DNA of 64,000 nucleotides from Undaria pinnatifida (lineage: Eukaryota > Sar > Phaeophyceae > Laminariales > Alariaceae): the NCBI GenBank assembly GCA_012845835.1, contig JABAKD010000023.1:11062421-11126420 (forward strand), in the 5' to 3' direction. Both the position numbers and the translations under genes were made by a program. Positions 12,895-60,476 of this stretch are shown here, piece after piece. Under the pieces are notes generated by a model. That model made no database searches, was not told the origin of the DNA, and saw nothing but the letters and a program-made list of their open reading frames with translations. Position 1 is the stretch's first letter. Each line of letters begins with the position of its first letter.

Positions 12895-12896
12895 CA

Positions 12897-29072: not shown

Positions 29073-29124
29073 GAAGTGAGTACTCTCCGAGGACCTGCTC
29101 AATTAGCAGACCTGCAGGGGGCAT
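29073..29124 (+). repeat. B 5' LTR fragment, outer piece
   Basis: It matches the last third of the family LTR (GTGAGTACTCTCCGAGGACC...). It ends with GCAT, duplicated at 30021-30024 by insertion of M. Confidence 0.8.
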
Positions 29125-29393
29125 TGTGAAATTAAAGGTGGGGGACACAGAGTGCCCCCTGCAGGTCTGCCAATTGAGCAGGTCCTCGGAGAGTACTCAC
29201 TTTCGTCCCTTCGTAGAGATGTAGCTTTATTCGTTTCCACCAGAGCCCGGGATAGCTTCTGAGATCGGAGGCGCGTGCCTCCGATCTAATTCCTAACTTC
29301 CCCGAATATAAACCGCCAACCTTATCATACGAAACCCATCCAAATGATATCAAATTCGGATACCTACAGGCCTTTCGAGGCCGTATCTTAACA
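29125..29393 (-). repeat. M 3' LTR
   Basis: 269 bp, TGTGAAATT to TTAACA on the plus strand. The central palindrome here has core GGCGCGTGCC. Confidence 0.85.
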
Positions 29394-29751
29394 CTAGCCC
29401 ACCCTGATGAGTCGCATATGCAGAAATATGGGAGATTCGGGGAAACTCCGGTTCTACGAACTAGACCATGAGTCGAAGATGCGGCTCCTCAAACCCCACT
29501 CCCACACCTTTAACCGTCTGGCTATGGAGCCAGGAACACGCGAAGAAAAGCAGTAGAAAGAAAAGCAGACCCTACAGCAAGGCAATAGTCACCCATCAAA
29601 AACCTGCCGTATGCCGCCGGTGTGGCGGGGGGGCAGAAAAGGCTCTAGAACATGCCGCATGCCGCCGGTGTGGCGGGGGGGGGCAGGAAAGGCTCTACGG
29701 TAAACCAACACCACAAAAAAGGTACTATGGCGACCTGCCGACGACGCCACA

Positions 29752-30020
29752 TGTGAAATTAAAGGTGGGGGACACAGAGTGTCCCCTGCAGGTCTGCCAA
29801 TTGAGCAGGTCCTCGGAGAGTACTCACTTTCGTTCCTTCGTAGAGATGTAGCTTTATTCGTTTCCACCAGAGCCCGGGATAGCTTCTGAGATCGGAGGCG
29901 CGTGCCTCCGATCTAATTCCTAACTTCCCCGAATATAAACCGCCAACCTAATCATACGAAACCCATCCAAATGATCTCAAATTCGGATACCTACAGGCCT
30001 TTCGAGGCCGTATCTTAACA
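29752..30020 (-). repeat. M 5' LTR
   Basis: 269 bp, nearly identical to 29125-29393. Confidence 0.85.
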
Positions 30021-30024
30021 GCAT

Positions 30025-30050
30025 TCTGTGTCCCCACCTTTCATTTATCA
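30025..30050 (+). repeat. B 5' LTR fragment, inner piece
   Basis: The terminal bases TCTGTGTCCCCACC...ATCA of the B 5' LTR, adjoining the primer site. Confidence 0.8.
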
Positions 30051-30052
30051 TG

Positions 30053-30070
30053 TGGCGTCGACGAGCGTGA
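30053..30070 (+). other. B primer-binding site
   Basis: TGGCGTCGACGAGCGTGA lies two bases after the LTR end, as in A and C. Confidence 0.7.
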
Positions 30071-33000
30071 TATGCTATTGTGGCAGCGTTCCTCAAATCT
30101 CTCCGATTTTTTTTCGTAGCGATTTTGCTTTTGCTTTTCTATCGAGCCCACAATCCCTGTTCCTTCTTGGGTGGCTTCTCAATGGAGGGAGCGCCCTTCC
30201 TCCTACAACGGCGACCACAACAGCAGTGAGATGGCAGGGGCCCCTCCTGTTGGTCGCCGGGCACGTACCACACGGACGACACGTTCCAAGTGCGTGCGGA
30301 CGACACTGGTTTGCGGAGCACACTCCTTGTCTCGAATTTCGGTTCCTCCTGTTGGTTGCTGGGCACGCACCAGAGGACACCTTCCGAGTACGTGCGGACG
30401 ACACTGCTCTTCGGAGCACACTCCTCGTCCCGGCCTTTGGTCGCATCAGTTCACCGCCAGCTGGTCATAGACCACTCCGCAGTGGAACTGCCCGAGCCCC
30501 ACCCATCAGACTTGTTTGCTCCGCGCTCTGCCAGCATGTTGCACAGCACATCTCCGCGAGTTGCCAGCACAAGCCCCAAGATCGGCCATCGACTTTGTAC
30601 TTTTGTTTGCGCTTTGGGGCTCGGAGGCATATGCACGACACGCAACAGACAAGCACACTGGAATCAACCCTTCGAATGACCCTCGACGGGGACTTCGCTT
30701 GCTGAGAGAGCCCATCGACTAGCATACACCTTTGCTGTCGGAGCCAGACCGCCCTTCGCGGGACCCCCTTGGACTACGGGCACCGTGCTCTTGGAGCTCA
30801 TGTCGGGGCTCCTTCGTTGTGATCTACCTGGGAAGGAACAGGCGGTGCTCGTGGAATGTTTGGGCTTTTTCGTTTGTCGAATTTTCCAGTACACGCGTTA
30901 TCGTATGGGTTTCAGTACATACGTCGACCCGTCTTGTGCGTCGAACAAACAGCTGCTCCCTTTCTGCCGAAATTAGTACTGCTACTAATTTGATGCACCT
31001 CGGACCACTCTCCGATCTTTCTCGATCAACAGCGTTCCACTACTGCTGTGCGTCGCGTAGCTTCAACCACCATCATCATGTTCGCAGAGGTACCAACTAC
31101 AGTGCAGCATAATGGGCTCGCTGTCAATGCCTGCCATATACCGCCGGATTCTCTGCTGTAGAAGTCACTGTACAGCAGCCAAGCCGCCTACTTTGCTCCT
31201 GCCCATCCACCACATAGCTCGACCCTTCACTGCCCCAGCGTCCACAGTTACAGCACCGCAGCTCTGACACCCTCCACTGCTGTGCGAGTGTTCCTTGCAA
31301 GTTCGATTCGAGAGTTTTTTTTTCGTCCTGGCCCCCCCGTGACTACAACTTCATTTTAGTGAACGCTGAAACTCTGTGCTGGCGTTTTTGGGCAAGGCTG
31401 TTGGTGTGTGCGATGCCCTATATTCCACCATTCATGGGTAAGCGGGGACTATTAATACCACTTTCTGTGTATGCACAGCTGTGACAGTGCGGCACTCTGC
31501 ACTGCTGTCAACGTAACTGTCCCTTTATCGGTGGGAGTGAGTGGGTATTGTACGGATTTTGTTTTTCAGCTGTACGGGCGTTAGGCCGTCTTCCTGCCGG
31601 TACATGTGCTGCCCCTCCACAATGCCGCTAGAATAAATGCTGCAATTTGTTTTTTTGCAGCTGTCACGACGGGTATTGCCAGTTGAAATGCGGTTTATAG
31701 TTGGCGGAGATGCTGAGCACTATGTATACTACTGTGGGCGCAAACGCTGCCTTTCTGCTGCTGTTGGTACATGTGCTGCCCTTCACGATAATGCTAGGGT
31801 CTACGCTGGGATTTTTTTTTTCTTCTTCTCTGCACATGTGCGGACAGTTACTGCCCGTTACAGAGCGCTTACTACACAGTTCGCGGAGATACTGCGATTC
31901 ACAGCTTTTAATAGTGCAGTGGAGATCAGCCCGTTTGATGCGGTACCTTTGGGGGCAAACAGCCTTTCTATTCGACTGTGGGCGTGCACATTTTTCTACA
32001 GCTGGTGTTGGTACTACACTACCCATCTTGGTGCGGCTGAAATTGCCGTTACCTGTTAACACAGCAGTGATACTGCAGCAATCAGCACTACTGTAGGCGC
32101 GACCGTCCCTCTTTAGCGCGGTCGGGGGAAACTACCTTGTTTCGGGGGGTTATACTGCCCGTTTTTTTTTATACGGTTGGTGCGCGAACCTTCACTGTGC
32201 TACCCCCCACTACACTACTGTGGGGGCAGATGCTGCCCGTTTTTATGCGGTTGGCTGCGCGATCCTTCACTGTGCTACCCCTCCACCCCTACACTACACC
32301 TAGGGTAAATGCTGCCTGTTTTGGTGCGATGAGTGTCAGCGTGTTAGGCGACTCTTCACTGTGCTTCCACCCCTACACTACACCTAGGTTAAATGCTGCC
32401 TGTTTGGTGCGATGAGTGTCAGCGTGTTAGGCGACTCTTCACTGTGCTGCCCCCCTACACTACACCTAGGTTAAATGCTGCCTGTTTTGGTGCGATGAGT
32501 GTCGGCGTGTTGGGCGACCCTTCACTGTGCTACCCCCTACACTACACCTAGGGTAGATGCTGCCTGTTTTAGTACGATGAGTGTCAGCGTGTTGGGTGAC
32601 CTTTCACTGTGCTACCTCCCTACACTACACCTAGGCTAAATGCTGCCTGTTTTGGTGCGATGAGTGTCAGCGTGTTGAGTTACCTTTCACTGTGCTACCC
32701 CCCTACACTACACCTACGGTAAATGCTGCCTGTTTTGGTGCGATGAGTGTCGACGTGTTGGGCGACCCTTCACTGTGCTTCCACCCCTACACTACACCTA
32801 GCGTAAATGCTGCCTGTTTTGGTGCGATGAGTGTCGGCGTGTTGGGCGACCCTTCACTGTGCTACCCCCTACGCTACACCTAGGCTAAACGCTGCCTGTT
32901 TTGGTGCGATGAGTGTCGGCGTGGTGGGCGAACCGTTATTGTGATAACCCCTACACTGCACCTAGGGTAAATGCTGCCTGTTTTGGTACGATGAGCGTCG

Positions 33001-33468
33001 GCGTTTTGGGCGACCCTTCACTGTGCTACCCCCCCCGCCTAGGTTGAATGATGCCTGTTTAAGTGCAATGGCTGCAGACGTACCTTAAATGTGTTGCACC
33101 CCCTGCACTGCGGTTAGGGTCAGTGCTGCCCAGTTTTGACTGCTTTTACTGCGGTTCGTGCGGGCGTTACCCATATACCCTACGGTCGGACTGGGCGCTG
33201 CTCTTTTGTTGCGGTTTTGATGGTTGGTACCTTCTTACTGCCGCACTCCTTTTATACGGCTAGTTGGCGTGGCTGCTACCATCACTGATGCTGGACGGAG
33301 TCGAGGCCCATGTCTTGCTGTTTGCTGAAACACAGATATATCGCTACTTACAGCAGGGACATCACAACAATATATCGGCCTCCATACCTTCTTTACGCGT
33401 CGTTCTCATCCCGCCACCTTTTCCCACACCCCCTTCTTCCGCTGCCCTCCATACAGACAACAAGCAAC
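30071..33468 (+). other. B leader with tandem repeats
   Basis: This is the 3.4-kb region upstream of gag. Its first 650 bp keep an open frame of 225 codons (30028-30705) containing two copies of RADDTALRSTLLV-like sequence, paralleled by shorter frames in A and C; I cannot assign a function. The rest holds the two arrays described separately. TTTTATACGG at 33250 is conserved about 210 bp before the gag ATG; its complement reads TATAAAAG. Confidence 0.7.
32150..33080 (+). repeat. B leader array, 82-bp unit
   Basis: About ten units plus two variant units at the 5' side. Each contains ACACCTAGG, TGCTGCCTGTTTTGGTGCGA, TGAGTGTC and CCTTCACTGTGCTACC. Unit starts near 32310, 32394, 32476, 32558, 32640 and on give a period of 82-84 bp. 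Confidence 0.9.
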
Positions 33469-35535
33469 ATGTCTACCAGTGAGGAAGCGGGCTACTCGGG
33501 GCAGGCTGAGGTCTTCCACGCACCCCAATCTGGATGCCCACGAGACAGGGAGAGCTCGCTCGAGATCCCGCGACTCGAGACGGGGGAACCACCGGAGGCG
33601 GGTTCCGGTGACGAGACAGAAGACGGAGCACCACTCCTCCACCCGTTCCCACCACCCAAGAGGGTCGATTCGCCGGTTTGCGCTGAGAAGACGGACCAAC
33701 CCCCAGCGGACTCGGGGGCGTCTCGACGCCAGCTCTCGCCAGCCCTGCGGGAGCGCCACCAGCTGCCTCCCCCGCGCTCGACAGGACACCATCGCCGCCA
33801 CCTGGGCTCTCCGCGCTCGACAGAGCGCCACCCCCAGAGCTCCCGGGACCGGGGCGGTCATGCCGACGCCAACCAGACGATAGCACGCCGACGTCGGTTT
33901 GACGAAGATATCGAGCAGGCGAAGACCGCTGCGCGGGAGGCGTCCCTGGTAGCGAAGAGAGCGCAACAAGCCCTCGCCCAATCAGTTGCGACGGCTGCGG
34001 CGGGAGCTATCGCGGCCCCCTTGCCTTCGTCGCGCCCGCAGGGTGTCGTATCCCAGCGACCACGACCCGGGAACGACGCCTTCTTCAAGGTCATCGTCGC
34101 GTGCATGGCGTCTGCACCGAGGGTAGACTTCTCCTCAGCGTTGGCGACCGTGGTGGTGGAAACGGCCTGCGCCCTCCTCCCGTCAGAGAGGCCGGCGTCG
34201 CGGCAAGCGGACGTCCTCAGTGGAAGCGGCCTGGGCTCGCGTGGATTGTACGCCCTATGCTAGACAGACGAGAGCCGCCCCGACCCTTGCCCTCGTCAAG
34301 GCCCTGCTGATAGCCCACGACGAGGACTCCGACCCTGTCTTTTGGCCGAAACCCGGAGGAAGAGTTGGCAGAACGAAACCGGGGGAAATGCCGCGACAAT
34401 CGCGACCACGGGGACCGCAACCGTGGGGGTGGCGGCCAAAATGGTGGGGGTGGCGACCACCACCACCGCCGCGGGGGTAACAGCGCATCGGGTGCTGGTG
34501 TGCCTGGGGGCGCCGCCGAGGGGGCAACTTTGGTCCAACAACCGGGGCAGTTGGCCGCAGCTCGGGCGGAGGCAACGGACGGCGGAGGAATGGCGCGAGA
34601 GGACGTTCAGCGTGGGACGGCTCGTCAACCTCCTCCCGCTCGTCTTCGTCCTCGAGCGCGGACCACAGCGAGGTGGTCGTGGTAGCAGGCAATAGTGTCA
34701 ATAGCCATGGCAGGAGGAACATCTGGGCCTGAGGCTTTCACCCTTCTGTTGCGTCTGCTGATCGCGCACTTCGACGGGGTCGACACGGAGGAGGGCTACA
34801 CTAAGTTACATATTTTTGTAATATGTAACGGCATGCCTTTTTCTGATTTCAGTCGGGAGTTTCCCGTACTTATGTTGACCGCTACGGGGAGTGAGCGTGT
34901 TTTGTCTCCGGGAACGGATGTGGTGTTGGAGGTGGTTCGGGTGGCGGCGAATGAGCAAGTTCCGGCTCTCCTGCCTGCGTTGTACCCTGGTTCGAAGGCA
35001 ACGGACCCGCGGCCATACGCCTCGTTGAATGCTATGTGGCGGGCTTTTAGTGACAAACAAGCCATGTGCCGTCAACGGCGAAACATTTTGTTTCTCTCCA
35101 TGTTTCTTCGACGGGAGTGCGGTCATCCGCCCCGTCGGGGCCCCGGCCCGCCGATCATGGGCGCGGCCAGGGCCGAGTGCCGTCCCAGTCGCTTTCGTGG
35201 CAGACGGGATCGAGCCATCGTTCAACTGTCATTCCCATCGATGATTCATCTGACCCTTGGCTTGACCACACATCGAACTGCTGGCCACTAGAAGAGCATC
35301 ATTATGCAGAAGGTTTCGCCGTTAAGGCCTCGTTTATGACAGCCGACCCTCCCCTTTGGAGCGGCCTCCTTTCACCTCGCGCTGATGCCCTCCGAGAAAT
35401 CCGGGGGCTTTGCCTCAGCTGCCACGAAGACAACCATTCCTTCAAGCATTGTAGGCATCCTTTCATTACTGCGAGTGGCTTCTTGAACCCTGAACTAGGC
35501 CAACTTGGCGACGATGACGCACACCGACGTTGACA
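33469..35535 (+). pseudogene. gag: B gag region, broken
   Basis: It starts at ATG 33469 (MSTSEEAGYSGQ). The first part is open for about 265 codons: acidic/proline-rich, then an Arg/Glu-rich coiled-coil-like stretch (RRRRFDEDIEQAKTAAREA). A capsid-like segment (GPEAFTLLLRLLIAHFDG, FSREFPVLML) lies at about 34709-35070. The CCHC knuckle CLSCHEDNHSFKHC is at about 35410-35451. This matches Ty3/gypsy Gag organisation (capsid then zinc knuckle). Broken in a few places. Confidence 0.85.
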
Positions 35536-36869
35536 AACACGCACGGTCTGCTACCGCCGAGACGACAAATCTTCTCGCCCGAACAACCACAAGAAGAATC
35601 GTCGCCATCTTTCTGGTCAATCGTCGCCATCTTTCAGGATCACGGCCAGGTAGACTGTCACAACGATACCACATACGCGTCGGATCACCCATGGTGGTAT
35701 CCTGCGCTCGCCCGCCTCTTCTGCCCCCGCTCCCGCTCCTCGAATGCGCTTTGGAGCCGCCCACAACCCGGGCGAAAGTACACTCGCGCGCCAACCTGGC
35801 ACATTCCGTAACGGCAATCGACAGCTCCACGGCGGTACGGCACCGTCAACAACACTGTCGGGGGGTACCTATTTTGGTTTCAGAAGATGCTTATGTTCTG
35901 TTGCTAGCCTGCCCAGTAACGCAGCACAGGTAGCCTCTGTCAAGAGCCCACGGGCTCCTACGCCGTCTGCGGAAGATTCTCACGGCGTAGTACCGGCGGC
36001 GGAAACTAGCGCTTCAAGCGCGGTTTCCTCCAGCCAGGTAATTTCTTTTATTTTCTTTCTTTCGTTTTCAACGGCGACAACGCGCGCTTTCAGCGACGTT
36101 CCCCTCGGTCATGGTCTGAGTTCGGCAACGGGAACCGCGCTTCCGGCGCCGTTTCCCTCAGCCGCGGCATAAACTCAGCAATGGGGGTACGCGCTCCAAA
36201 CGCCGCCCCCATCAACCATGGCACGGGAGCCTGCGCTTTGCGCGCTCCCCCCCCAGGCACGCGTCGCGCAACAATATAGCTGCGGCGACGGCGCGTCGCC
36301 TTTTTACGCGTATGTGTTCATCCCCCCCTCTCCCTGACCAGGCGGTGGCAGTCGGTTTGAGGTGTGGGACGGTCGACCCTCGAAACACTTTTTCTGACCA
36401 CGAGGTGGCGGTCGATTTGAGGTGTGGGAAGGCCAACACTAAAACACCGAGATCTTTTGCGAGGCTCGATCCGGTGTTTGCTCGCGGTAACAGCGGGCGC
36501 TCTGTCCCTTTTACCATCAAGGAGGAGTCGACAAGATTAGCTACCTCGTCTCCCTTCTCCAAGAGATATAACGGAAAAGAGCCTCCTCGGGTAAAAACAT
36601 TATTGCCTTGCCCGAGCCCCGCTCCAGAAGACGCCCACAGGGTCGACGGACCCTGCTTCGTCTTTTTATACGCTAACCCACGTGTTTCAGGCTACGTCTG
36701 CCCCAGTGGCACAGGAAGAAGATCCGACACTGCGCGACGGGCCAGTGGTGACTCCACGGCCTCCAGCCTAATCAGCTGGACGCTATTCCCGTAAAATTAC
36801 GGAAGAATCGCGCCTCTCGTCAAACAGAAACAGCTCAGAGCCCCTGCCTCTTCGGGCGCAGTCAGAGCA
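35536..36869 (+). other. B spacer between Gag and the repeat block
   Basis: The translation is Ser/Ala/Pro/Arg-rich with no recognised domain. A segment with GGTGGCAGTCGGTTTGAGG-like sequence is duplicated in tandem at about 36340-36450. No protease motif is visible. Confidence 0.5.
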
Positions 36870-37477
36870 GTTTTTTTGCGATTATACGCCAAAAAGCGAA
36901 GAGGCCACGACGCGAGAAACCGTGGGTTCGGACTCGCGTCGTGCCCCCGAGGCCTGGCGTTCCTGAGGGGGACACTACAGGCCCAAAGAGCCGAGGACTG
37001 GTGTTCCCAAACGGGGACATTGCAGACCCAAATGCCCAACGAGGCTACCGACGGGTTGGCACCGTCGGTGTTGGACTCTTTTTCGGGTGCAGCGAGGGCG
37101 GCTTCTTACGAGTGTCCGCCAGCGAGTGAGGAGGACCCGAGGAGAGAAACCCCAGGTTCGGACTCGAATCTTGTTCCCGAGGCCTGGTGCTCCCGCAAGG
37201 GGACACTACAGGCCCAAAGAGCCGAGGACTGGTGTTCCCAGAAGGGGACATTGCAGACCCACAAATGTCCAACGAGGCTACCGACGGGTTGGCACCGTCG
37301 GTTTGTGCCATTTTTCGGGCGCAGTTAGAGCGTATTTTCGCGCTTTTCCGCCAACGAGCGAAGAAAGACCCGAGGCGAGATACCACGGGTTCGGATTCGC
37401 GTCGTGCTTCCGAGGCCTGGTGTTCCTGGACGGGGACATTGCAGGCCCAAATTTCTACACGGCTTTTGACCCTTCTC
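36870..37477 (+). repeat. B block of about 230-bp repeats upstream of NADAR
   Basis: About three units with CCCGAGGCCTGGTG, GGGGACACTACAGGCCCAAA and AACGAGGCTACCGACGGG. One frame reads NEATDGLAPSV ... EAWCS..GTLQAQ in each unit. No known domain. Confidence 0.75.
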
Positions 37478-37975
37478 TCGAATACTCCACAGCCAAAGTG
37501 GCGTTGTTCTGGCAGCCCCCATCCTAGTTTCCACCGTGGTCCCCTTCGTCGTTTGCCGTGGACGACGTACATATTCTTGCGCGGAGCAGTACATGATGGC
37601 CGAAAAGACCAAGCTTTTGCAAGACCGTTGAGCAGTGGGTCTCATCATGTCGTCGCCTTGTCCAAGCACACGCAAACGCATCGGTCGAGGCGTGCGCAAC
37701 TTTGACTTCGCTGTTGGGGACAGAGAGAAGCAAAACGCCGTGTCACCTGGCACCTACGCCAAATTCACGCAGAACCCAGCAGCCATAGAGAAATCACCTT
37801 TCGAGCTCTGACAACAAGCTTCTGGCTGAATCCAGCCCTCTGAACCCAGTGTGGGGTATTGGTCTCCGGGCGGATGGTCCCAGGGCCAACAACCCATGCC
37901 AGGGGAGAGGAAAACCTTGCTCGGTGAAGCACTTTCTGCCGTTCGCGCAGCTATTTGCGACAATGAGACCGGGTC
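37478..37975 (+). pseudogene. B NADAR-domain region (YbiA-like)
   Basis: Motifs in the order of the NADAR fold: VALFWQPPS, SFAVDD, AEQYMMAEKTKLL, RIGRGVRNFDFAVGD, GTYAKFTQNP, VWGIGLRADGPRANNP, and LLGEALSAVRAAI. Known NADAR proteins have exactly this succession (FY.....SNF, aEqymMa.KA, iGR.vr.F, ..KF.qNp, WGiGl..dd, nlLG.alm.vR). The Glu and Lys of AEQYMMAEK and the WGIG motif, which are conserved in the family, are present. The region is broken and its role in the element is unknown. Confidence 0.85.
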
Positions 37976-38149
37976 GGCGCACCCGGCCTCCCCTAGTCGG
38001 TTCCGCACCTGCACTGCGAGTGCAAGAACCAAGAAATCTCGTCCGCGCCGCAACCGGATCGTTCACAGCGGCCAGCGCTCGCAAAGCTTCCCCTTCGGCG
38101 TTTCCAACCTATTTCTCGGGCGCGTTGGCCAATTAAAAGCCGTGAAGGT

Positions 38150-38535
38150 TTGGAGATAGCTTCTGGCGTCGCCCCTGACTTTGCGATGTCAGAACACGGC
38201 CCCTGTTTCGTCAAGGGTACTGTGACGCTGGACGACGTTTCGTTCACTATGAAAATCGCGTATATCAGTCGAGCAACGCTCGACTCGGAGCGGCACTGGA
38301 CTCCTCTAGATTTGGGGACCGACAGCATTGTTTGGGCTACCAAACACCCTGGAGGGTACTGTGGAGAACAAAATGCCGCATATCCTCCGGCCACAAGACA
38401 CAGGAGAGCACTGGCAAAGTGGGGATCCTCAATGCACGAGTCCAGCGGTAGCTTGAGTTCGTCACCGCGTTCGATTGCACACTCAAGTACCGCAAAGGCA
38501 GCGCCAACGGCATCGCCGATTTTATATGGCCCGTT
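38150..38535 (+). pseudogene. B RNase H remnant
   Basis: MKIAYISRATLDSERHW and SIVWATKH follow the Ty3/gypsy RNase H pattern. Only about 175 bp separate it from the NADAR region, too little for a reverse transcriptase. Broken. Confidence 0.7.
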
Positions 38536-38589
38536 TTCCAGAGCCTGTTACGGAGTACGACCGCAGTGGCTTGACAAACTTCAACCCCG

Positions 38590-38870
38590 TGGGGTTGCCA
38601 AGCCCCAACCCCGTTGGAGAAAGCGGTATCCACCTCCTATGGACCCGCGGGCTGCGCGCTCCGTCTTCGCCGATCCCAGGGGTCGGTTTGGGTGGACTCG
38701 CGCCCCCGCCGAAAACACTGTCTTGGGTGAGCTCGTGCCAACACCGAAAGCACAGCTTTGGGTGGACTCGAACCCCTCGCCGAAAGCACTGTCTTGGGTG
38801 GGCTCGTGCCCCGCACTGAACATGCTGCCTTGGGTGGGCTCCCTCTCACCTCTACCGCGTTTCACGATTT
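38590..38870 (+). repeat. B short repeats with TTGGGTGG core
   Basis: Units of about 46 bp with CTTGGGTGGGCTCGTGCC and CCGAAAGCACTG; a coding-like frame gives LGWARAP/LSWVGS repeats. It matches 4360-4640 (A) and 51130-51330 (C). Confidence 0.7.
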
Positions 38871-39846
38871 TCGCACACACGAGCCACGTATAAGGATTGA
38901 CGGCCTTTCTGCTTCCCCGGGGACATTCGTCGCTCGTGTTTCTGCCTCCGTCGCCACTACCGAAGGCTGTACCGGCCGCGGGTCGATTTCACCTGCCGCC
39001 GACACCGTTTTTGCTTCGGTTTTTGCCATACCCATCGAGGGCGGCACGGGCTCCGCAGAAGCCCTGGCTGCAGCGACGCCCATCGCACAGCCGACTTATC
39101 TATCCCGGAGGTCTTTACTGGAGACTGCCCCGCCGCGACCACCGGTTCGACTGTGTCCGTCTCCGCCATGCTTGGCACTCCAGCCCCTCCGTCGTCAACG
39201 ACGCGCCGACGAACAGCGACAACAACGGGTAATGCAACCCCGCTGAAAATTATAGATTCGGGCCCGGCGGGACCCCTCGGCCATCTTCCAGACGAGGTAC
39301 AACCCCGTCGCGAGTCCCACGGCCGCGGCCGACCCCGTCGACCGCCGCGACCCCTGCTCTTGCCGACTCGCCGGTCGGCACGGTGCCACTACCGTCCGAC
39401 CGCGACCATGCAGAGCCAATATGGGAACTCCTCTCTTACGACTCACGCCTTTTCCTGGTGACACGCCGACTGCACACACAAGGTATGACGCCCTCGGCGA
39501 CGCTGCTGACTTGCGGTTCGCTGATTCCGCCGCGCGTTATTCACATGCCGATTGGAAGCGAGAGAAGCACACTGGGCCGACTTGCCACGCCATGATGCGT
39601 TACATCTCTACCGGCCGGCCATCGGTCCTGCCGCCCGACTTTTTGTCGTGCTACCTCTCGCACAATCGTCCATCCCTCTCAGACCAAGGAGTTGGCGGAT
39701 AAGGATCGACTACATACAACCGACGACGACATCGTCCTACCCTTAACCCGACACTGCCGCCAACAAGGTCTGACAAACCCAACTCTGCGGGGCGGGCTGC
39801 TTGCCTGCTAAACGACGAGCTAGTTCGCATCTACGTTCCCCTGCTC
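38871..39846 (+). other. B linker between RNase H and integrase
   Basis: The translation (for example AVRYSH/DWKRE-like and RPSLSDQG) corresponds to the stretch before the integrase zinc module in Ty3/gypsy Pol. It differs from C by more than 10 percent up to about 39607, then becomes practically identical. Confidence 0.55.
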
Positions 39847-41736
39847 ATGCGCCCTTGGATCATGCAAGCTTGTCACTTGACGTCTTCTTGTCACCTTGGC
39901 ACCACGCGCACGTTGCGCATGCTGGAGCGTTTTCATTGGTGGATTGGCATGAGTGTGTGCACCCGGTGGTGTCTTCGCCACTGCTTGAAGTGCCAAGCGC
40001 GGAAAACCCCACGGCTGACTGTCCGCTGGCCCATCATCACAATGCCTCTGCCGGAAGGTCTAGGTGTCGCCGTCAGTGTTGACTACTTCGGCTCCCTTCC
40101 GGTCAGACCAGGAAGCAACATTTACATCCTGCTGTTCACCGATCGCTTCAGTCGTTGGGCCGACATGTTCCCCGTCACTGCCGCTGAGTTCACCGCGGAG
40201 GGTACAGCCAATATCCTGGTGAAGCAATACATCTCCTTGTGGGGGTGCCCGCGCACCATACTCTCGGACAACGGACTGCAGTTCTGCTCCAAGCTTTCAC
40301 AAGCTGTGTATCAGCTGTTGGGTGTGCACAAGCTTGCTACAAGCTCCTATCATCCCAACTGTAACGGGGGTGTTGAGCTGGTAAATCACACTATGGCACA
40401 AATGCTGGCTATGGTCATCAACGAGCGACAAGACCATTGGGACTTGCATCTGCCCCAAGTAAAATTCGCTAACAACAACTCCGTCAGCGCGGCGACGGGT
40501 CTGGCGCCCAACGAGGTCCACATGGGCAGACTCCCACGGCTCCCCTTGACGTTTTTCGACCGCACTGGTGTCGTGGGACACCAGAGTCTGTCCCGTGACC
40601 ACCTGGTCTATTGCGACTTGGCCACTGACCGGCAAAAGCGCGTGAACGACATTGTCCGCGCACACCACGCCCTCACCGTTTCCCGTGTTAACCGCAGAAA
40701 CTCCGCCCTCGCCGACGTGCTGCGTCCAGCACCTAACTTCACTGTGGGTGGTTGGGCATGGGTATACAGTTCTGCCTTTACCATCCGCCAGGGTGTAAAG
40801 GTGAACACCGACGCCAAGGTACTCAAGACCAAACTCGCGCTTAACTGGAAGGGCCCATACAAGGTCCTGGCCGTTGGTGCCTGCTCCGCCGCTGAGACCC
40901 CGGATGGCTCGCCGCTCGGAAGCCACCTCCTTTATTTGGATCTCCAATTCGACCTGCCTGGTTCGGACGCTTGTCGGCGTGTGGCCAACGAGCGCTGCAA
41001 ACCCTGTGCCAACCCCCACGACAGCGGGGACATGCCCAAATACCTACCGGCGGGGCTGACACAGTATGTTCTCAACAAATTTTCCCAGAAGTCCCTGCCG
41101 TACCACGTCATTCAAGACGACGTTTCGACTCCTCTCCAACGGCTGGAGGTGGAGCAGATCACTGGTGATCAGTCGGTACGGGGGCGAGGTGGCGTCATCG
41201 CGGTGCTATACAAGACGCACTGGGCGGGACTCTCCGAACCTTCCTGGGAGCGGGAAATGGACCTCCACCTCTCCCGCTCCCACATCTTGCGTTATTGGGC
41301 CGAAGCCCCGGACCAGCACCGCCAAACCAACCGCCTCTACTGCCGAATGTGGATCGGAGCGGCACAGCGTGAGCTCTCCCGCAACAACGGGGAACGTTTC
41401 CTAGCGCCGGCCTACGCCCGTGTTCCCCGCGTCGATTGGCTCCGTCGCTACCGCGAACCAGTACTCCCTAAGGGAGCCCAATTTTGGTACAAGGGAAACG
41501 ATGGTTTATGGTGGCTTGGAAAAATCAGCGCGAGCACTACCGAGGACAAGGTATACCTGGTCCGCTTCCTGGACGATCCGGGACCGATCAAACTTCCTCT
41601 TCCCCCGGCGCGCTACACGACTTCAACGGGAGCCGTACGAGGTTCTCGGTGCTTTCAAATTCACATCGCCAGTGCGTTTCCTCGAAGAATCCAACGTAAC
41701 GTAGACGAATCTCGAGGCGCGGCCGTGGCCAGTTGA
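39847..41736 (+). CDS. B integrase with chromodomain and Tudor-like tail, open frame whole
   Basis: 629 codons from ATG; the frame is open a little further upstream, so this ATG may be internal to a longer Pol. Residues 10-49 form an HHCC zinc module (H-x5-H-x29-C-x2-C). The catalytic core has D79 (VDYFG), D141 (LSDNG) and E177 (GGVELVN) with exactly 35 residues between the last two. A GPY motif is at 336-338. A chromodomain covers about 432-484 (EVEQITGDQ...HWAG...PSWERE...ILRYW). After it, residues about 545-591 (QFWYKGNDGLWWLGKI ... VYLVRFLDD) resemble a Tudor/SH3-like reader. The enzyme joins the element DNA to chromatin; the two reader modules would steer it to marked nucleosomes. Confidence 0.9.
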   Translation: MRPWIMQACHLTSSCHLGTTRTLRMLERFHWWIGMSVCTRWCLRHCLKCQARKTPRLTVRWPIITMPLPEGLGVAVSVDYFGSLPVRPGSNIYILLFTDRFSRWADMFPVTAAEFTAEGTANILVKQYISLWGCPRTILSDNGLQFCSKLSQAVYQLLGVHKLATSSYHPNCNGGVELVNHTMAQMLAMVINERQDHWDLHLPQVKFANNNSVSAATGLAPNEVHMGRLPRLPLTFFDRTGVVGHQSLSRDHLVYCDLATDRQKRVNDIVRAHHALTVSRVNRRNSALADVLRPAPNFTVGGWAWVYSSAFTIRQGVKVNTDAKVLKTKLALNWKGPYKVLAVGACSAAETPDGSPLGSHLLYLDLQFDLPGSDACRRVANERCKPCANPHDSGDMPKYLPAGLTQYVLNKFSQKSLPYHVIQDDVSTPLQRLEVEQITGDQSVRGRGGVIAVLYKTHWAGLSEPSWEREMDLHLSRSHILRYWAEAPDQHRQTNRLYCRMWIGAAQRELSRNNGERFLAPAYARVPRVDWLRRYREPVLPKGAQFWYKGNDGLWWLGKISASTTEDKVYLVRFLDDPGPIKLPLPPARYTTSTGAVRGSRCFQIHIASAFPRRIQRNVDESRGAAVAS

Positions 41737-42631
41737 CTTCCAAGCCACCACCTCTCCTCGATAGTTCTTCATTTTGTTTTGAGTTATGAGTTTTGCGTCT
41801 TTGTCGTTGGGTTGTTCGTAGTGTCCTGAGAGTCTTCGTCGGGTTTAGAGGCGGTTCTTCCATTGATTTTTCTTTCTGTCCTGCCGAACCCCCTGCTCAG
41901 TGCCGGGTCAGGGTTTGGGTAAAACGCCGCTATCTGAGGCGCAGGGCTGTCGCCTTTTCGTCATTGTTCAATTTCACCCTGCCGACGCCCTCCTCAGCCC
42001 AGAGCCGGGGGGCGACCAGGGTACCCTGTTCGCGCGTAACGTGGTACAGGGCTATGTACGGATCAATGTGTCATCTTTTATATTTAGTGTGTTGTATTCG
42101 TTCTGCTTTGTTTTTTTCGTCTAAACACTTCCTCCCCTAGCGGGGCTGTAGGTATTGCCACCTTCCATCCCTGGTAGTTGTCGTTTCCTCGTCTAACCCC
42201 CCGCCTCGCCGATGGCCCGCGGGAGGTTGTTCGCACGACTTCTCCCTTGTCTTAGCGCCTGTGTTCCCCTCCATATCGACGAGGGCTCGCCTCGCCATAG
42301 TACCTTATCTGTGGTTGGTTTACCGTAGAGCCTTTCCTGCCCCCTCCCGCTACACCGGCGGCATGCGGCAGGTTCTAGAGCCTTTTCTGCCCCCCCCCCG
42401 CCACACCGGCGGCATGCGGCAGGTTTTGTTTGGGTGACTATTGCCTTGTTGTAGGGTCTTCGTTTATTTCTACTGCTTTTCTTCGCGTGTTCCTGGCTCC
42501 ATAGCCAGACGGTTAGAGGTGTAGGGGTGGGTTTTGAGGAGCCGCATCTTCGACTCATGGTCTAGTTCGTAGAACCGAAGTTTCCCGAATCTCCCATATT
42601 TCTGCATATGCGACTTATCAGGGTGGGCTAG
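41737..42631 (+). other. B 3' untranslated region
   Basis: No gene. Two tandem copies of a unit of about 47 bp (CCGCCACACCGGCGGCATGCGG) lie at 42345-42430. It ends in CAGGGTGGGCTAG, the polypurine tract, immediately before the LTR. Confidence 0.7.
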
Positions 42632-42886
42632 TGTTAAGATACGGCGTCAAAAGGCCTGTAATTATCCGAATTTAAGATCATTTGGATGGGTTTCGTATGA
42701 TGAGGTTGGCGTTTTTAGGAATTAGATCGGAGGCACGTGCCTCTGATCTCAGAAGCTATCCGGGGCTCTGGTGAAATCGAACAAAGCTACGTCTCTACGA
42801 AGGCAAAGAAAGTGAGTACTCTCCGAGGACCTGCTCAATTGGCAGATCTGCAGGGGGCACTTTGTGTCCCCACCTATAACTTCACA
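42632..42886 (+). repeat. B 3' LTR
   Basis: 255 bp, TGTTAAGATACGG to CTTCACA, shorter than the 269-bp family norm. It differs from the C 3' LTR at about 6 percent of positions. Confidence 0.85.
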
Positions 42887-47099: not shown

Positions 47100-47368
47100 T
47101 GTTAAATTAAAGGTGGGGACACAGAATGCCCCCTGCAGGTCTGCCAATTGAGCAGGTCCTCGGAGAGTACTCACTTTCTTTTCCTTCGTAGAGACGTAGC
47201 TTTATTCGATTCCACGAGAGTCCCGGATAGCTTCTGAGATCGGAGGCACGTGCCTCCGATCTAGTTCCTAACTTTCCCGAATATAAACCGCCAACCTCAA
47301 CATACGAAACCCATCCAAATGATCTCAAATTCGGATAATTACAGGCCTTTCGACGCCGTATCTTAACG
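47100..47368 (-). repeat. C 3' LTR
   Basis: 269 bp beginning TGTTAAATT; the perfect palindrome with core GGCACGTGCC is present. The adjoining interior gives the polypurine tract CAGGGTGGGCTAG on the minus strand. Confidence 0.9.
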
Positions 47369-48263
47369 CTAGCCCACCCTGATGAGTCGCATATGCAGAA
47401 ATACGCGAGATTCGGGGAAACTCCGGTTCTACGAACTAGACCATGAGTCGAAGATGCGGCTCCTCAAATCCCACTCCCACACCTCTTACCGTCTCGCTAA
47501 GGAGCCAGGAACACGCGAAGAAAAGCAGTAGAAATAAACGAAGACCCTACAACAAGGCAATAGTCACCCATCAAAACCTTGCCGCGTGCCGCCGGTGTGG
47601 CGGGGGGGGGCAGAAAAGGCTCTAGAACCTGCCGCATTTCGCCGGTGTAGCGGGAGGGGGCAGGGAAGGCTCTACGGTAAACCAACCACAGATAAGGTGC
47701 TATGGCGAGGCGAGCCCTCGTCGATATGGAGGGGAACACAGGCGCTAAGACAAGGGAGAAGTCGTGCGAACAACCTCCCGCGGGCCATCGGCGAGGCGGG
47801 GGGTTAGACGAGGAAACGACAACTACCAGGGATGGAAGGTGGCAATACCTACAGCCCCGCTAGGGGAGGAAGTGTTTAGACGAAAAAAACAAAGCAGAAC
47901 GAATACAACACACTAAATATAAAAGATGACACATTGATCCGTACATAGCCCTGTACCACGTTACGCGCGAACAGGGTACCCTGGTCGCCCCCCGGCTCTG
48001 GGCTGAGGAGGGCGTCGGCAGGGTGAAATTGAACAATGACGAAAAGGCGACAGCCCTGCGCCTCAGATAGCGGCGTTTTACCCAAACCCTGACCCGGCAC
48101 TGAGCAGGGGGTTCGGCAGGACAGAAAGAAAAATCAATGGAAGAACCGCCTCTAAACCCGACGAAGACTCTCAGGACACTACGAACAACCCAACGACAAA
48201 GACGCAAAACTCATAACTCAAAACAAAATGAAGAACTATCGAGGAGAGGTGGTGGCTTGGAAG
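47369..48263 (-). other. C 3' untranslated region
   Basis: Same structure as in B with two copies of the CCGCCGGTGTGGCGGGG unit (about 47580-47665). From 47701 onward it belongs to the tract practically identical to B. Confidence 0.7.
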
Positions 48264-50153
48264 TCAACTGGCCACGGCCGCGCCTCGAGATTCGTCTACG
48301 TTACGTTGGATTCCCCGAGGAAACGCACTGGCGATGTGAATTTGAAAGCACCGAGAACCTCGTACGGCTCCCGTTGAAGTCGTGTAGCGCGCCGGGGGAA
48401 GAGGAAGTTTGATCGGTCCCGGATCGTCCAGGAAGCGGACCAGGTATACCTTGTCCTCGGTAGTGCTCGCGCTGATTTTTCCAAGCCACCATAAACCATC
48501 GTTTCCCTTGTACCAAAATTGGGCTTCCTTAGGGAGTACTGGTTCGCGGTAGCGACGGAGCCAATCGGCGCGGGGAACACGGGCGTAGGCCGGCGCTAGG
48601 AAACGTTCCCCGTTGTTGCGGGAGAGCTCACGCTGTGCCGCTCCGATCCACATTCGGCAGTAGAGGCGGTTGGTTTGGCGGTGCTGGTCCGGGGCTTCGG
48701 CCCAATAACGCAAGATGTGGGAGCGGGAGAGGTGGAGGTCCATTTCCCGCTCCCAGGAAGGTTCGGAGAGTCCCGCCCAGTGCGTCTTGTATAGCACCGC
48801 GATGACGCCACCTCGCCCCCGTACCGACTGATCACCAGTGATCTGCTCCACCTCCAGCCGTTGGAGAGGAGTCGAAACGTCGTCTTGAATGACGTGGTAC
48901 GGCAGGGACTTCTGGGAAAATTTGTTGAGAACATACTGTGTCAGCCCCGCCGGTAGGTATTTGGGCATGTCCCCGCTGTCGTGGGGGTTGGCACAGGGTT
49001 TGCAGCGCTCGTTGGCCACACGCCGACAAGCGTCCGAACCAGGCAGGTCGAATTGGAGATCCAAATAAAGGAGGTGGCTTCCGAGCGGCGAGCCATCCGG
49101 GGTCTCAGCGGCGGAGCAGGCACCAACGGCCAGGACCTTGTATGGGCCCTTCCAGTTAAGCGCGAGTTTGGTCTTGAGTACCTTGGCGTCGGTGTTCACC
49201 TTTACACCCTGGCGGATGGTAAAGGCAGAACTGTATACCCATGCCCAACCACCCACAGTGAAGTTAGGTGCTGGACGCAGCACGTCGGCGAGGGCGGAGT
49301 TTCTGCGGTTAACACGGGAAACGGTGAGGGCGTGGTGTGCGCGGACAATGTCGTTCACGCGCTTTTGCCGGTCAGTGGCCAAGTCGCAATAGACCAGGTG
49401 GTCACGGGACAGACTCTGGTGTCCCACGACACCAGTGCGGTCGAAAAACGTCAAGGGGAGCCGTGGGAGTCTGCCCATGTGGACCTCGTTGGGCGCCAGA
49501 CCCGTCGCCGCGCTGACGGAGTTGTTGTTAGCGAATTTTACTTGGGGCAGATGCAAGTCCCAATGGTCTTGTCGCTCGTTGATGACCATAGCCAGCATTT
49601 GTGCCATAGTGTGATTTACCAGCTCAACACCCCCGTTACAGTTGGGATGATAGGAGCTTGTAGCAAGCTTGTGCACACCCAACAGCTGATACACAGCTTG
49701 TGAAAGCTTGGAGCAGAACTGCAGTCCGTTGTCCGAGAGTATGGTGCGCGGGCACCCCCACAAGGAGATGTATTGCTTCACCAGGATATTGGATGTACCC
49801 TCCGCGGTGAACTCAGCGGCAGTGACGGGGAACATGTCGGCCCAACGACTGAAGCGATCGGTGAACAGCAGGATGTAGATGTTGCTTCCTGGTCTGACCG
49901 GAAGGGAGCCGAAGTAGTCAACACTGACGGCGACACCTAGACCTTCCGGCAGAGGCATTGTGATGATGGGCCAGCGGACAGTCAGCCGTGGGGTTTTCCG
50001 CGCTTGGCACTTCAAGCAGTGGCGAAGACACCGCCGGGTGCACACACTCATGCCAATCCACCAATGAAAACGCTCTAGCATGCGCAACGTGCGCGTGGTG
50101 CCAAGGTGACAAGAAGACGTCAAGTGACAAGCTTGCATGATCCAAGGGCGCAT
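48264..50153 (-). CDS. C integrase with chromodomain and Tudor-like tail, open frame whole
   Basis: 629 codons, differing from the B frame at only about five or six residues. All catalytic and zinc-binding residues listed for B (H-x5-H-x29-C-x2-C; D79, D141, E177) are kept, as are the GPY motif, chromodomain and Tudor-like tail. Its wholeness contrasts with the broken gag and NADAR regions upstream. Either the copy is young, or the tract was copied from a functional relative or from the B arm. Confidence 0.9.
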   Translation of the reverse strand: MRPWIMQACHLTSSCHLGTTRTLRMLERFHWWIGMSVCTRRCLRHCLKCQARKTPRLTVRWPIITMPLPEGLGVAVSVDYFGSLPVRPGSNIYILLFTDRFSRWADMFPVTAAEFTAEGTSNILVKQYISLWGCPRTILSDNGLQFCSKLSQAVYQLLGVHKLATSSYHPNCNGGVELVNHTMAQMLAMVINERQDHWDLHLPQVKFANNNSVSAATGLAPNEVHMGRLPRLPLTFFDRTGVVGHQSLSRDHLVYCDLATDRQKRVNDIVRAHHALTVSRVNRRNSALADVLRPAPNFTVGGWAWVYSSAFTIRQGVKVNTDAKVLKTKLALNWKGPYKVLAVGACSAAETPDGSPLGSHLLYLDLQFDLPGSDACRRVANERCKPCANPHDSGDMPKYLPAGLTQYVLNKFSQKSLPYHVIQDDVSTPLQRLEVEQITGDQSVRGRGGVIAVLYKTHWAGLSEPSWEREMDLHLSRSHILRYWAEAPDQHRQTNRLYCRMWIGAAQRELSRNNGERFLAPAYARVPRADWLRRYREPVLPKEAQFWYKGNDGLWWLGKISASTTEDKVYLVRFLDDPGPIKLPLPPARYTTSTGAVRGSRCFQIHIASAFPRGIQRNVDESRGAAVAS

Positions 50154-51130
50154 GAGCAGGGGAACGTAGATGCGAACTAGCTCGTCGTTTAGCAGGCAAG
50201 CAGCCCGCCCCGCAGAGTTGGGTTTGTCAGACCTTGTTGGCGGCAGTGTCGGGTTAAGGGTAGGACGATGTCGTCGTCGGTTGTATGTAGTCGATCCTTA
50301 TCCGCCAACTCCTTGGTCTGAGAGGGATGGACGATTGTGCGAGAGGTAGCACGACAAAAAGTCGGGCGGCAGGACCGATGGCCGGCCGGTAGAAACGTAA
50401 CGCATCATGGCGTGGCACGTCGGCTCAGCGTGGTGCTCTCGCTTCCAATCGCCATGTGAATAACGCGCGACGGAATCAGCGAACCGCAAGTCAGCAGCGT
50501 TGCCGAGGGCGTCCGACCTTGTATATGCAGCCGACGTGTCGCCAGGAGAAGGCGTGAGCCGTAAGAGAGGAGTTCCCATATTGGCTCTGCGTAGTCGCGG
50601 TCGGACGGTAGTGGCACCGTGCCGACCAGCGAGTCGGCAAGAACAGCGGTTGCGGCGGTCGACGGGGTCGGCCGCGGCCGTGGGACTCGCGGCGGGGTTG
50701 TACCTCGTCTGGAAGATGGCCGAGGGGCCCCGCCGAGCGCGAATCCATAATCAACAGCGGGGGTGCATTACCTGTTGTTGTCGCTGTTCGTCGGCGCGTC
50801 GTCGACGACGGAGGGGCTGGAGTGCCAAGAATGGTGGAGACGGACACAGTCGAACCGGTGATCGCGGCGAGGCCGTCTCCTGTAAAGAACTCCGGGATAG
50901 ATATGTCGGCCGTGCGATGGGCGTCGCTGCAGCCAGGGCTTCTGTGGAGCCCGTGCCGCCCTCGATGGGTATGGCGAAAACCGAAGCGAAAACAGTGTCG
51001 GCGGCAGGTGAAATCGACCCGCGGCCGGTACAGCCTTCGGTCGTGGCGACGGAGGCAGAAAAACAAGCGAAGAATCTCCCCGGGGAAGCAGAAAGGCCGT
51101 CAATCCTTATACGTGGCTCGTGTGTGCGAT
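50154..51130 (-). other. C linker between integrase and RNase H
   Basis: Corresponds to 38871-39846 of B. From 50393 on it differs from B by more than 10 percent. Confidence 0.55.
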
Positions 51131-51330
51131 AATCGTGAAACGCGGTAGAGGTGAGAGGGAGCCCACCCAAGGCAGCATGTTCAGTGCGGGGCACGAGCCC
51201 ACCCAAGACAGTGTTTTCGGCAAGGGCGCGAGTCCACCCAAACCGACCCCTGGGATCGGCGAAGACGGAGCGCGCAGTCCGCGGGTCCGTAGGAGGTAGA
51301 TACCGCTTTCTCCAACGGGGTTGGGGCTTG
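51131..51330 (-). repeat. C short repeats with GAGCCCACCCAA core
   Basis: Two to three units, fewer than in A or B. On the minus strand they read LGWARAP/LSWVGS-like repeats. Confidence 0.65.
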
Positions 51331-51399
51331 GCAACCCCACGGGGTTGAAGTTTGTCAAGCCACTGCGGTCGTACTCCGTAACAGGCTCTGGAAAACGGG

Positions 51400-51785
51400 C
51401 CATATAAAATCGGCGATGCCGTTGGCGCTGCCTTTGCGGTACTCGAGTGTGCAACCGAACGCGGTGACGAACTCAAGCTACCGCTGGACTCGTGCATGGA
51501 GGGTCCCCACTTTGCCAGTGCTTTCCTGTGTCTTGTGGCCGGAGGATATGCGGAACTTTGGTCTCCACAGTACCCTCAAGGGTGTTTGGTAGCCCAAACA
51601 ATGCTGTCGGTCCCCAAATCTAGAGGAGTCCAGTGCCGCTCCGAGTCGAGCGTTGCTCGACTGATATACGCGATTTTCATAGTGAACGAAACGTCGTCCA
51701 GCGTCACAGTACCCTTGACGAAACAGAGGCCGTGTTCTGACAGCGCAAAGTCAGGGGTGACGCCAGAAGCTAACTTCAAACCTCC
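51400..51785 (-). pseudogene. C RNase H remnant
   Basis: The minus strand gives MKIAYISRATLDSERHW and SIVWATKHP as in B, preceded by PDFALSEHG, perhaps the first RNase H strand. Broken; no reverse transcriptase between it and NADAR. Confidence 0.7.
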
Positions 51786-51959
51786 ACCGCTTTTAATTGG
51801 CCAGCGCGCCCGAGAAATAGGTCGGAAACGCCGAAGGGGAAGCTTTGCGAGCGCTGGCCGCTGTTAACGGTCCGGTTGAGGCGCGGACGAGATTTCTTGG
51901 TTCTTGCACTCGTAGTGCAGGGGCGGAACCGACTAGGGGAGGCCGGGTGCGCCGACCCG

Positions 51960-52455
51960 GTCTCATTGTCGCAAATAGCTGCGCGAACGGCAGAAAGTGC
52001 CTCACCGAGCAAGTTTTTCCTCTCCCCTGGCATGGGTTGTTAGCCCTCGGACCATCCGCCCGGAGACCAATGCCCCACACTGGGTTCAGAGGGCTGGATT
52101 CAGCCAGAAGCTTGTTGTCAGAGCTCGAAAGGTGATTTCTCTATGGCTGCTGGGTTCTGCGTGAATTTGGCGTAGGTGCCAGGTGACACGGCGTTTTGCT
52201 TCTCTGTGTCCCTAACAGCGGAGTCAAAGTTGCGCACGCCTCGACCAATGCGTTTGCGTGTGCTTGGACGAGGCGACGACATGATGAGACCCACTGCTCA
52301 ATGGTCTTGCAAAAGCTTGGTCTTTTCGGCCATCATGTACTGCTCCGCGCAAGAATATGGTACGTCGTCCACGGCAAACGACGAAGGGGACCACGGTGGA
52401 AACTAGGATGGGGGCTGCCAGAACAACACCACTTTGGCTGTGGGGTATTCGAGAG
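51960..52455 (-). pseudogene. C NADAR-domain region (YbiA-like)
   Basis: The minus strand shows KVVLFWQPPS, SFAVDDVPYS, AEQYMMAEK, IGRGVRNFD, WGIGLRADGPRA and NLLGEALSAVRAAI, in NADAR order. It matches the B and A regions. As there, it sits between the repeat block and RNase H. Broken. Confidence 0.85.
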
Positions 52456-53065
52456 AAGGGTCAAAAGCCGTGTTGAAATTTGGGCCTGCAATGTCCCCGT
52501 CCAGGAACACCAGGCCTCGGAAGCACGACGCGAATCCGAACCCGTGGTATCTCGCCTCGGGTCTTTCTTCGCTCGTTGGCGGAAAAGCGCGAGAATACGC
52601 TCTAACTGCGCCCGAAAAATGGCACAAACCGACGGTGCCAACCCGTCCGTAGCCTCGTTGGACATTTGTGGGTCTGCATCTGTCCTCGGCTCTTTGGGCC
52701 TGTAGTTTCCCCTTGCGGGAGCACCAGGCCTCGGGAGCAACATGCGCGCCCGAACCTGGGGTTTCTCGCCTCGGGTCCTCCTCACTCGCTGATGGAAACT
52801 CGTAAGAAGCCGCCCTCGCTGCATCCGAAAAAGAGTCCAACACCGACGGTGCCAACCCGTCGGTAGCCTCGTTGGGCATTTGGGTCTGCAATGTCCCCGT
52901 CTGGGAACTCTAGTCCTCGGCTCTTTGGGCCTGTAGTGTCCCCCTCAGGAACACCAGGCCTCGGGAGCACGACGCGAGTCCGAACCCACCGTTTATCGCG
53001 TCGTGGCCTCTTCGCTTTTTGGCGTATAATCGCAAGAAAACTGCTCTAACTGCGCCCGAAGGGGC
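52456..53065 (-). repeat. C block of about 230-bp repeats upstream of NADAR
   Basis: About two and a half units, slightly fewer than B; the same NEATDGLAPS and EAWCS..G.LQAQ motifs appear on the minus strand. Confidence 0.7.
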
Positions 53066-54345
53066 AGAGGCTCTGAGCTGTTTCTGTTTGACGAGAGGCG
53101 CGATTCTTCCGTAATTTTACGGGAATAGCGTCCAGCTGATCAGGCTGGAGGCCGTGGAGTCACCACTGGCCCGTCGCGCAGTGTCGGATCTTCTTCCTGT
53201 GCCACTGGGGCAGACGTAGCCTGAAACACGTGGGTTAGCGTGTTAAAAGACGAAGCAGGGTCCGTAGACCCTGTGGGCGTCTTCTGGAGCGGGGCTCGGG
53301 GAAATGGCAATAATGTTTTTACCCGAGGAGGCTCTTTTCCGTTATATCTCTTGGAAAAAAGAGACGAGGTAGCTAATCTTGTCGACTCCTCCTTGATGAA
53401 AAAAAAAGGACAGAGCACCCGCTGTTACCGCGAGCAAACACCGGATCGAGCCTCGCAAAAGATCTCGGTGTTTTAGTGTTGGCCTTCCCACACCTCAAAT
53501 CGACCGCCACCTCGTGGTCAGAAAAAGTGTTTCGAGGGTCGACCGTCCCACACCTCAAACCGACCGCCACCGCCTGGTCAGGGAGAGGGGGGGATGAACA
53601 CATACGCGTAAAAAGGCGACGCGCCGTCACCGCAGCTATATTGTTGCGCGACGCGTGCCTGGGGGGGGAGCGCGCAAAGCGCAGGCTCCCGTGCCATGGT
53701 TGATGGGGGCGGCGTTTGGAGCGCGTACCCCCATTGCTGAGTTTATGCCGCGGCTGAGGGAAACGGCGCTGGAAGCGCGGTTCCCGTCGCCGAACTCAGA
53801 CCATGACCGAGGGGAACGTCGCTGAAAGCGCGCGTTGTCGCCGTCGAAAAAGCAAGAAAGGATATTACCTGGCTGGAGGAAACCACGCTTGAAGCGCTAG
53901 TTTCCGCCGCCGGTACTACGCCGTGAGAATCTTCCGCAGACGGCAAAGGAGCCCGTGGGCTCTTGACAGAGGCTACCTGTGCTGCGTTACTGGGCAGGCT
54001 AGCAATAGAACACGAGCATCTTCTGGAACCAAAATAGGTACCCCCCGACAGTATTGTCGACGGTGCCGTACCACCGTCGAGCTGTCAATTGCCGTTACGG
54101 AATGTGCCAGGTTGGCGCGCGAGTGTACTTTCGCCCGGGTTGTGGGCGGCTCCAAAGCGCATTCGAAGAGCAGGAGCGGGGGCAGAAGAGGTGGCGAGAG
54201 CAGGATACCACCTTGGTGATCCGACGTGTATGTGGTAGCGTTGTGACAGTCTACCTGGCCCTGATCCTGAAAGATGGCGACGATTTTTCTTGTGGTTGTT
54301 CGGGCGAGAAGATTTGTCGTCTCGGCGGTAGCAGATCATGCGTGT
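53066..54345 (-). other. C spacer between Gag and the repeat block
   Basis: Same as the B spacer, with the duplicated CGACCGCCACC..GGTCAG segment at about 53490-53585. No domain recognised. Confidence 0.5.
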
Positions 54346-60356: not shown

Positions 60357-60374
60357 TCACGCTCGTCGACGCCA
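60357..60374 (-). other. C primer-binding site
   Basis: TGGCGTCGACGAGCGTGA on the minus strand, two bases after the 5' LTR. Confidence 0.7.
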
Positions 60375-60476
60375 CATGTTAAATGAAAGGTGGGGACACA
60401 GAATGCCCCCTGCAGGTCTGCTAATTGAGCAGGTCCTCGGAGAGTACTCACTTTATTTTCCTTCGTAGAGACGTAG

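Follow-up and report, generated by a model that had tools for sequence, protein, structure and literature searches.

The three LTR elements A, B and C of the window (the whole 64,000-nucleotide stretch of Undaria pinnatifida DNA analysed here) are an RT-less derivative sharing one deletion, by which they have lost reverse transcriptase (RT); this form is new. By its sequence, the family is a Ty3/Gypsy-type LTR retrotransposon with a YbiA-type NADAR domain in Pol, and the identity of domain and element is close to certain. As a whole explanation, we propose that A, B and C are RT-less Gypsy copies and that NADAR is a putative particle-borne guanine de-ADP-ribosylase, a plausible reading that stops just short of probable. 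The features of the window, in which NADARs were located by tblastn with an intact kelp NADAR as query, are as follows.

439..13165, minus strand: element A, RT-less derivative, LTR to LTR
439-712 and 12906-13165: LTR matches of A, pair distance K=0.099
4728..4966, minus strand: truncated RNase H remnant of A (tblastn, RNase H residue 36 onward, two frames)
5286..5754, minus strand: NADAR of A (tblastn E 5e-56; two frames, one stop)
29074..42886, plus strand: element B, with only a fragmentary 5' LTR that a small LTR element breaks up
29074-29123 and 42627-42886: LTR fragment and 3' LTR of B
33329..35818, plus strand: Gag remnant of B, several frames (tblastn with Gag pieces of the intact copy)
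37459..37976, plus strand: NADAR of B (tblastn E 1e-36; stops and frameshifts)
38249..38274 in B (plus strand), 4947-4972 in A and 51655-51680 in C: deletion junction, identical 26 nt
38255..38493, plus strand: truncated RNase H remnant of B, two frames
39703..41736, plus strand: open frame of 677 aa in B with the integrase part (identity to the intact copy, 90%)
47100..60645, minus strand: element C, RT-less derivative, LTR to LTR
47100-47373 and 60377-60645: LTRs of C, K=0.054
48264..50297, minus strand: 677-aa open frame of C, integrase part
51436..51674, minus strand: truncated RNase H remnant of C, two frames
51953..52471, minus strand: NADAR of C (tblastn E 1e-48; broken)
32286-33034, 56933-57793 and 10179-10528 in the window, and 1720-3233 of L011: tandem array of an 83-85-bp unit

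A sequence-only reading of the window had assigned a NADAR domain to all three elements. This was confirmed by tblastn, which placed a YbiA-type NADAR (PF08719) in each, and the motifs AEQYMMAEK, IGRGVRNF and GTYAKFTQN were present in A, B and C. All three domains were broken by stops and/or frameshifts. Their stated position, with gag on one side and RNase H on the other, holds to the letter because the protease core, RT and roughly a third of RNase H at its start are deleted; in A the RNase H remnant directly follows NADAR. The copies had also been held to differ in age, which is upheld for A and C (K 0.099 versus 0.054), while the fragmentary 5' LTR of B gives no date. GCTC stands on each side of element A and was judged by eye to be a target duplication of 4 bp, and the 4 bases flanking C show one mismatch between the sides.

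A Pfam NADAR profile search of the Undaria pinnatifida genome (68 contigs, 511,146,479 bases) yielded 1454 candidates; all 150 places scored exceeded the curated cut-off, the strongest with E 1.4e-49. They were distributed over 32 contigs, and 14 of the 150 lay inside open frames of 2473 or 2371 residues. The copy termed C18, whose NADAR scored 172.6 bits against a curated cut-off of 35.1, has an LTR match identical at 273/274 positions (LTR proper, about 269 bases), a target duplication GTAG (by eye) and the order Gag–NADAR–protease–RT–RNase H–integrase. A CX2CX4HX4C knuckle (by eye) lies close to the end of its ORF1, after which come a single in-frame TGA and then ORF2. The 2473 residues of ORF2, searched in pieces, carry NADAR at 408-557, before the protease in the N-terminal part of Pol, together with RVT_1, RNase H, H2C2 and rve; an LLDTGS protease motif lies between NADAR and RT (by eye). 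The piece covering the RT end and RNase H matched Ty3 in the PDB (E 1.6e-23). The integrase piece, which lacks the last residues, gave no chromodomain match in Pfam at E<=1; putative integrase chromodomains have been reported in three of four Ectocarpus lineages (PMC12477816). In seven of eight loci (L001-L008) a single TGA, then C, splits Gag and Pol in the same frame, L001 differing upstream; readthrough of this stop might therefore join Gag to Pol.

The argument that NADAR belongs to the element was borne out by further copies. Sixty were hand-picked from the top of the 150, rows with NADAR stops and some others being omitted, and with the C18 copy they made a sample of 61 that is biased to open copies. 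An RT match was found downstream on the same strand in 59/61 and an RNase H match in 58/61; L055 and L068 showed neither within the stretch taken. Among the 150 scored NADAR places, at least 83 had a scored RT place 0.5-3.5 kb downstream, a lower bound, with 150 of 1651 RT candidates scored. Two proteins, P0127 and P0129, likewise join NADAR and RT in one chain.

Gypsy elements with NADAR are already in print, and the kind is therefore known: Ectocarpus elements with NADAR at the Pol N-terminus, such as Gypsy-12_Ec32, were reported in 2025 (PMC12477816). The kelp family is like that lineage in being Ty3/Gypsy, in residing in a brown alga and in having a NADAR of the YbiA family in N-terminal Pol; set against the published description of Ectocarpus, Undaria appears to add two NADAR types and the RT-less derivative. 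A Tx1 LINE of Crassostrea gigas is likewise a retroelement with NADAR (PMC12477816), but it is a non-LTR element with the domain in ORF1, whereas the kelp element has LTRs and carries it in Pol.

In comparison with the C18 copy, A, B and C have the same deletion of ~2,087 bases (2.1 kb), with one junction. It begins before the DTG motif of the protease, takes out RT entirely and extends through roughly the opening third of RNase H, leaving a short piece before the protease core. The order protease–RT–RNase H–integrase was not found in A, B or C, which are deletion derivatives, and the best RT match anywhere in the window had an E value of 0.27. Two copies fetched beyond the 61, L156 and L157, share the same junction. 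A 26-base junction marker was present at 442 places in the genome with <=2 mismatches, as compared with 0 for the reversed control; its best match differed at 6 or more positions in the 61 sampled copies and at 2 in L156 and L157. For RT, a 26-base marker that matches 54 of the 59 RT-bearing sampled copies was present at 161 places, although the ratio of 442 to 161 is rough because the two markers differ in conservation. The RT-less derivative is abundant in the Undaria pinnatifida genome, and is presumably copied in trans by RT-bearing elements. As such derivatives occupy hundreds of places and NADAR is broken in the three examined here, NADAR need not be intact in cis.

Selection on NADAR was assessed by pairwise dN/dS (Nei-Gojobori, codon bootstrap intervals). 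RT-bearing pairs gave 0.17 (0.09-0.30) for L010-L071, 0.25 (0.14-0.44) for L071-L067 and 0.66 (0.34-1.6) for L010-L067; L071 and L067 keep RT but are broken copies themselves. When RT-bearing and RT-less copies were paired, the ratios were 0.21 (0.11-0.38) for L010-L157 and 0.33 (0.20-0.53) for L010-L156. Among four RT-less copies, L157-L156 gave 0.98 (0.53-1.96) over 134 codons, and the pairs covering 67-68 codons gave 0.68 (A-L157), 0.90 (A-L156), 0.93 (C-L157), 0.71 (C-L156) and 0.92 (A-C). All six RT-less values thus fall between 0.68 and 0.98, each with an interval that includes 1. By these ratios, purifying selection on NADAR along RT-bearing lineages is shown in two of three pairs, and the four RT-less copies look like decaying sequence, with no detectable NADAR constraint among them. 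This contrast between RT-bearing and RT-less copies, as estimated here, is new. Because the RT-less figures also include decay that followed insertion, they do not show that constraint had been lost beforehand.

Shallow RT-bearing pairs scattered, with values of 1.03 for L010-L059 and 1.5 for L040-L070, both compatible with neutrality, and 0.26 for L010-L062. In 20 pooled open copies of family I, the ratio was 0.35 (0.12-1.15) for NADAR and 0.16 (0.06-0.41) for RT; seven copies of family II gave 0.48 versus 0.25, as point values without intervals. Constraint on NADAR in the young family looks looser than that on RT. The protease region of young copies gave 1.97 (0.32-3.8). Within-family dN/dS of young copies was considered as a decider and set aside as too shallow.

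Catalytic positions were taken from the Phytophthora and E. coli C7 NADARs (PMC11543638) and placed by alignment of the kelp NADAR to 8bau. The catalytic E, K and YbiA-type Glu were kept in 58, 60 and 60 of the 61 sampled copies, respectively. All three were kept in 56/61 and one was changed in 5/61, L071 among them, in a sample from which stop-bearing NADARs had been omitted. The Phytophthora nicotianae NADAR (8bau) belongs to the same family (E 3.8e-14; catalytic E, K and E align), as does E. coli YbiA (2b3w) by sequence (E 3.4e-4); both are stand-alone enzymes, unlike the kelp NADAR, which is inside Pol.

Two types of NADAR were distinguished in the kelp elements. Family II (L040 and others) is ~80% identical to family I in RT and 49% identical in NADAR, a disparity that appears to be new, and both families keep the catalytic residues. 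Nannocystis (P0101) has a NADAR that shares 59% identity with the family I domain, and the corresponding figures are 58-62% for four named brown-algal proteins and P0065, a eukaryote protein grouping with the brown-algal ones; for family II the identities to P0101, the four brown-algal proteins and P0065 are 48-52%. Myxobacterial NADARs, such as that of Nannocystis, were among the closest named bacterial matches listed, and are stand-alone bacterial genes, unlike the kelp Pol domain. Mostly bacterial hits have also been reported for the NADAR of Ectocarpus elements (PMC12477816). Whether host NADAR genes are the closest relatives had been raised as a question; in this genome the P0065 query matched nothing closer than element copies, at 59%, with 150 of 1685 candidates scored, a search in which spliced genes could be missed.

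In a careful tree, family II joined the stand-alone P0149/P0171 (96/92), and a grouping of family I with brown-algal and other retroelement NADARs had weak support (80/75); in a quick tree of 138 rows the kelp copies need two origins. AU tests nevertheless did not reject the grouping of families I and II (p 0.197), the wider retroelement set with family II (0.136), the same with the brown-algal proteins (0.317), and P0129 with the retroelement set (0.172). As the AU tests do not reject a single origin, replacement of NADAR is a possibility and not a finding. Around NADAR, families I and II are 53-59% identical in the protease region and 22-36% in some flanking windows. Because identity is low there too, the whole region may have evolved fast, a fair alternative to separate capture of the two NADARs, which is itself possible. 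P0127 is of the same Gypsy lineage as the kelp family (RT 67%). P0129, in which the order is NADAR–protease–RT–RNase H–integrase and RT is only 36% identical, is by its sequence a second Gypsy lineage with NADAR in the same place. Relatives of P0129 and P0127 were sought in viral contigs and none was found. In P0130 and P0131, microbial PARG, ADP-ribosylglycohydrolase and NADAR are joined in one chain.

The nucleic-acid de-ADP-ribosylation role envisaged by the sequence-only reading agrees with the conserved catalytic residues and with published chemistry, and the steps beyond the active site are ones that we infer. The NADAR is predicted to be an active guanine-ADP-ribosyl hydrolase, which would be made as part of Pol and carried into the particle. 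There it would remove ADP-ribose from guanines of the genomic RNA or cDNA of the element, and this would keep ADP-ribosyltransferases of the host (or of a rival) from blocking reverse transcription or integration. Copying of the RT-less derivative would be done in trans by elements that keep RT. We count in favour of this mechanism the catalytic residues kept in 56/61 together with the low dN/dS of L010-L071 and L071-L067, the recurrence of the NADAR-to-integrase order in P0129 at 36% RT identity, and the action of published NADARs on guanine ADP-ribose in DNA and RNA. Counted against it are the value of 0.66 for L010-L067, the broken state of L071 and L067, the changed catalytic residue in 5/61, the looser constraint on NADAR than on RT within families, and shallow pairs compatible with neutrality. 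We know of no ADP-ribosyltransferase acting on brown-algal retroelements. Tested NADARs remove ADP-ribose from guanine in DNA (PMC11543638, PMC11125620) and in RNA, where they spare phosphate ends (PMC11833690); YarT-YbiA systems are described in PMC11125620.

In a bolder and rather doubtful version of the mechanism, Gypsy elements would have captured bacterial-type NADARs more than once, one replacing another in the same Pol slot, as a particle-borne guanine de-ADP-ribosylase defending reverse transcription against nucleic-acid ADP-ribosyltransferases. This would be a eukaryotic parallel to the conflict between DarT and NADAR seen in bacteria and phages. The main text of a virus survey of such systems (PMC9503650) contains none of the terms retrotranspos-, transposon, LTR and retroelement.

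The retained catalytic residues would also suit activity on a different N-glycosidic substrate, be it a small metabolite derived from NAD or an intermediate of the riboflavin type, by which NADAR might aid nucleotide/NAD balance in reverse transcription. E. coli YbiA does cleave riboflavin intermediates (PMC11543638), but ADP-ribosylated guanosine, in DNA as well as in RNA, is likewise a substrate of YbiA, and a domain built into Pol, in place of a separate enzyme, suggests a target in the particle; we consider this substrate improbable. Comparably slight is the chance that NADAR is a binding or structural module for ADP-ribose or nucleic acid, with catalysis dispensable: the looser constraint in the young family and the five copies with a changed residue would fit, but 56/61 keep all three residues, as do both families at 49% identity. 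Processing of the RNA intermediate of the element, for instance of its ends or caps, has been suggested for the Ectocarpus and oyster elements (PMC12477816), and a role on NAD caps had been raised for the window copies. Such processing is quite unlikely, and the NAD-cap role weakened, as in experiments on RNA phosphate ends (PMC11833690) the NADARs tested left ADP-ribose in place. That NADAR was picked up a single time as a passenger and is now in decay accords with the six RT-less pairs but sits poorly with the ratios of L010-L071, L071-L067 and L010-L157 and with the same NADAR position in P0129, and is equally hard to credit.

If NADAR is active as a guanine de-ADP-ribosylase, these retroelements would be countering nucleic-acid ADP-ribosylation, a chemistry with few known eukaryotic roles. 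The kelp genome offers a natural comparison between RT-bearing copies with open NADAR and hundreds of RT-less derivatives.

Several further observations were made in the window. The 677-residue integrase-part frames are still open in B and C despite their broken NADAR and Gag. B and C are inverted relative to each other and are 99.6-100% identical over ~2 kb (about 40021-42020 of B), as compared with mostly 88-98% elsewhere. Frame-breaking NADAR lesions are common to B and C, and these, together with the tract of high identity, make ectopic gene conversion likely. The tandem array upstream of Gag has about 4 to 18 copies of its unit. Inside the 5' LTR of B lies a mini element of about 0.9 kb (29125-30020, minus strand) with the structure LTR-internal-LTR; its LTR pair is 98.5% identical and GCAT occurs on both sides, so it is young, and it is of the same family. 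Outside A, B and C, a stretch at 26104-26223 (minus strand) matches the protease region of family II over 40 residues (42.5% identity, E 5e-7) and is perhaps the remnant of another element.
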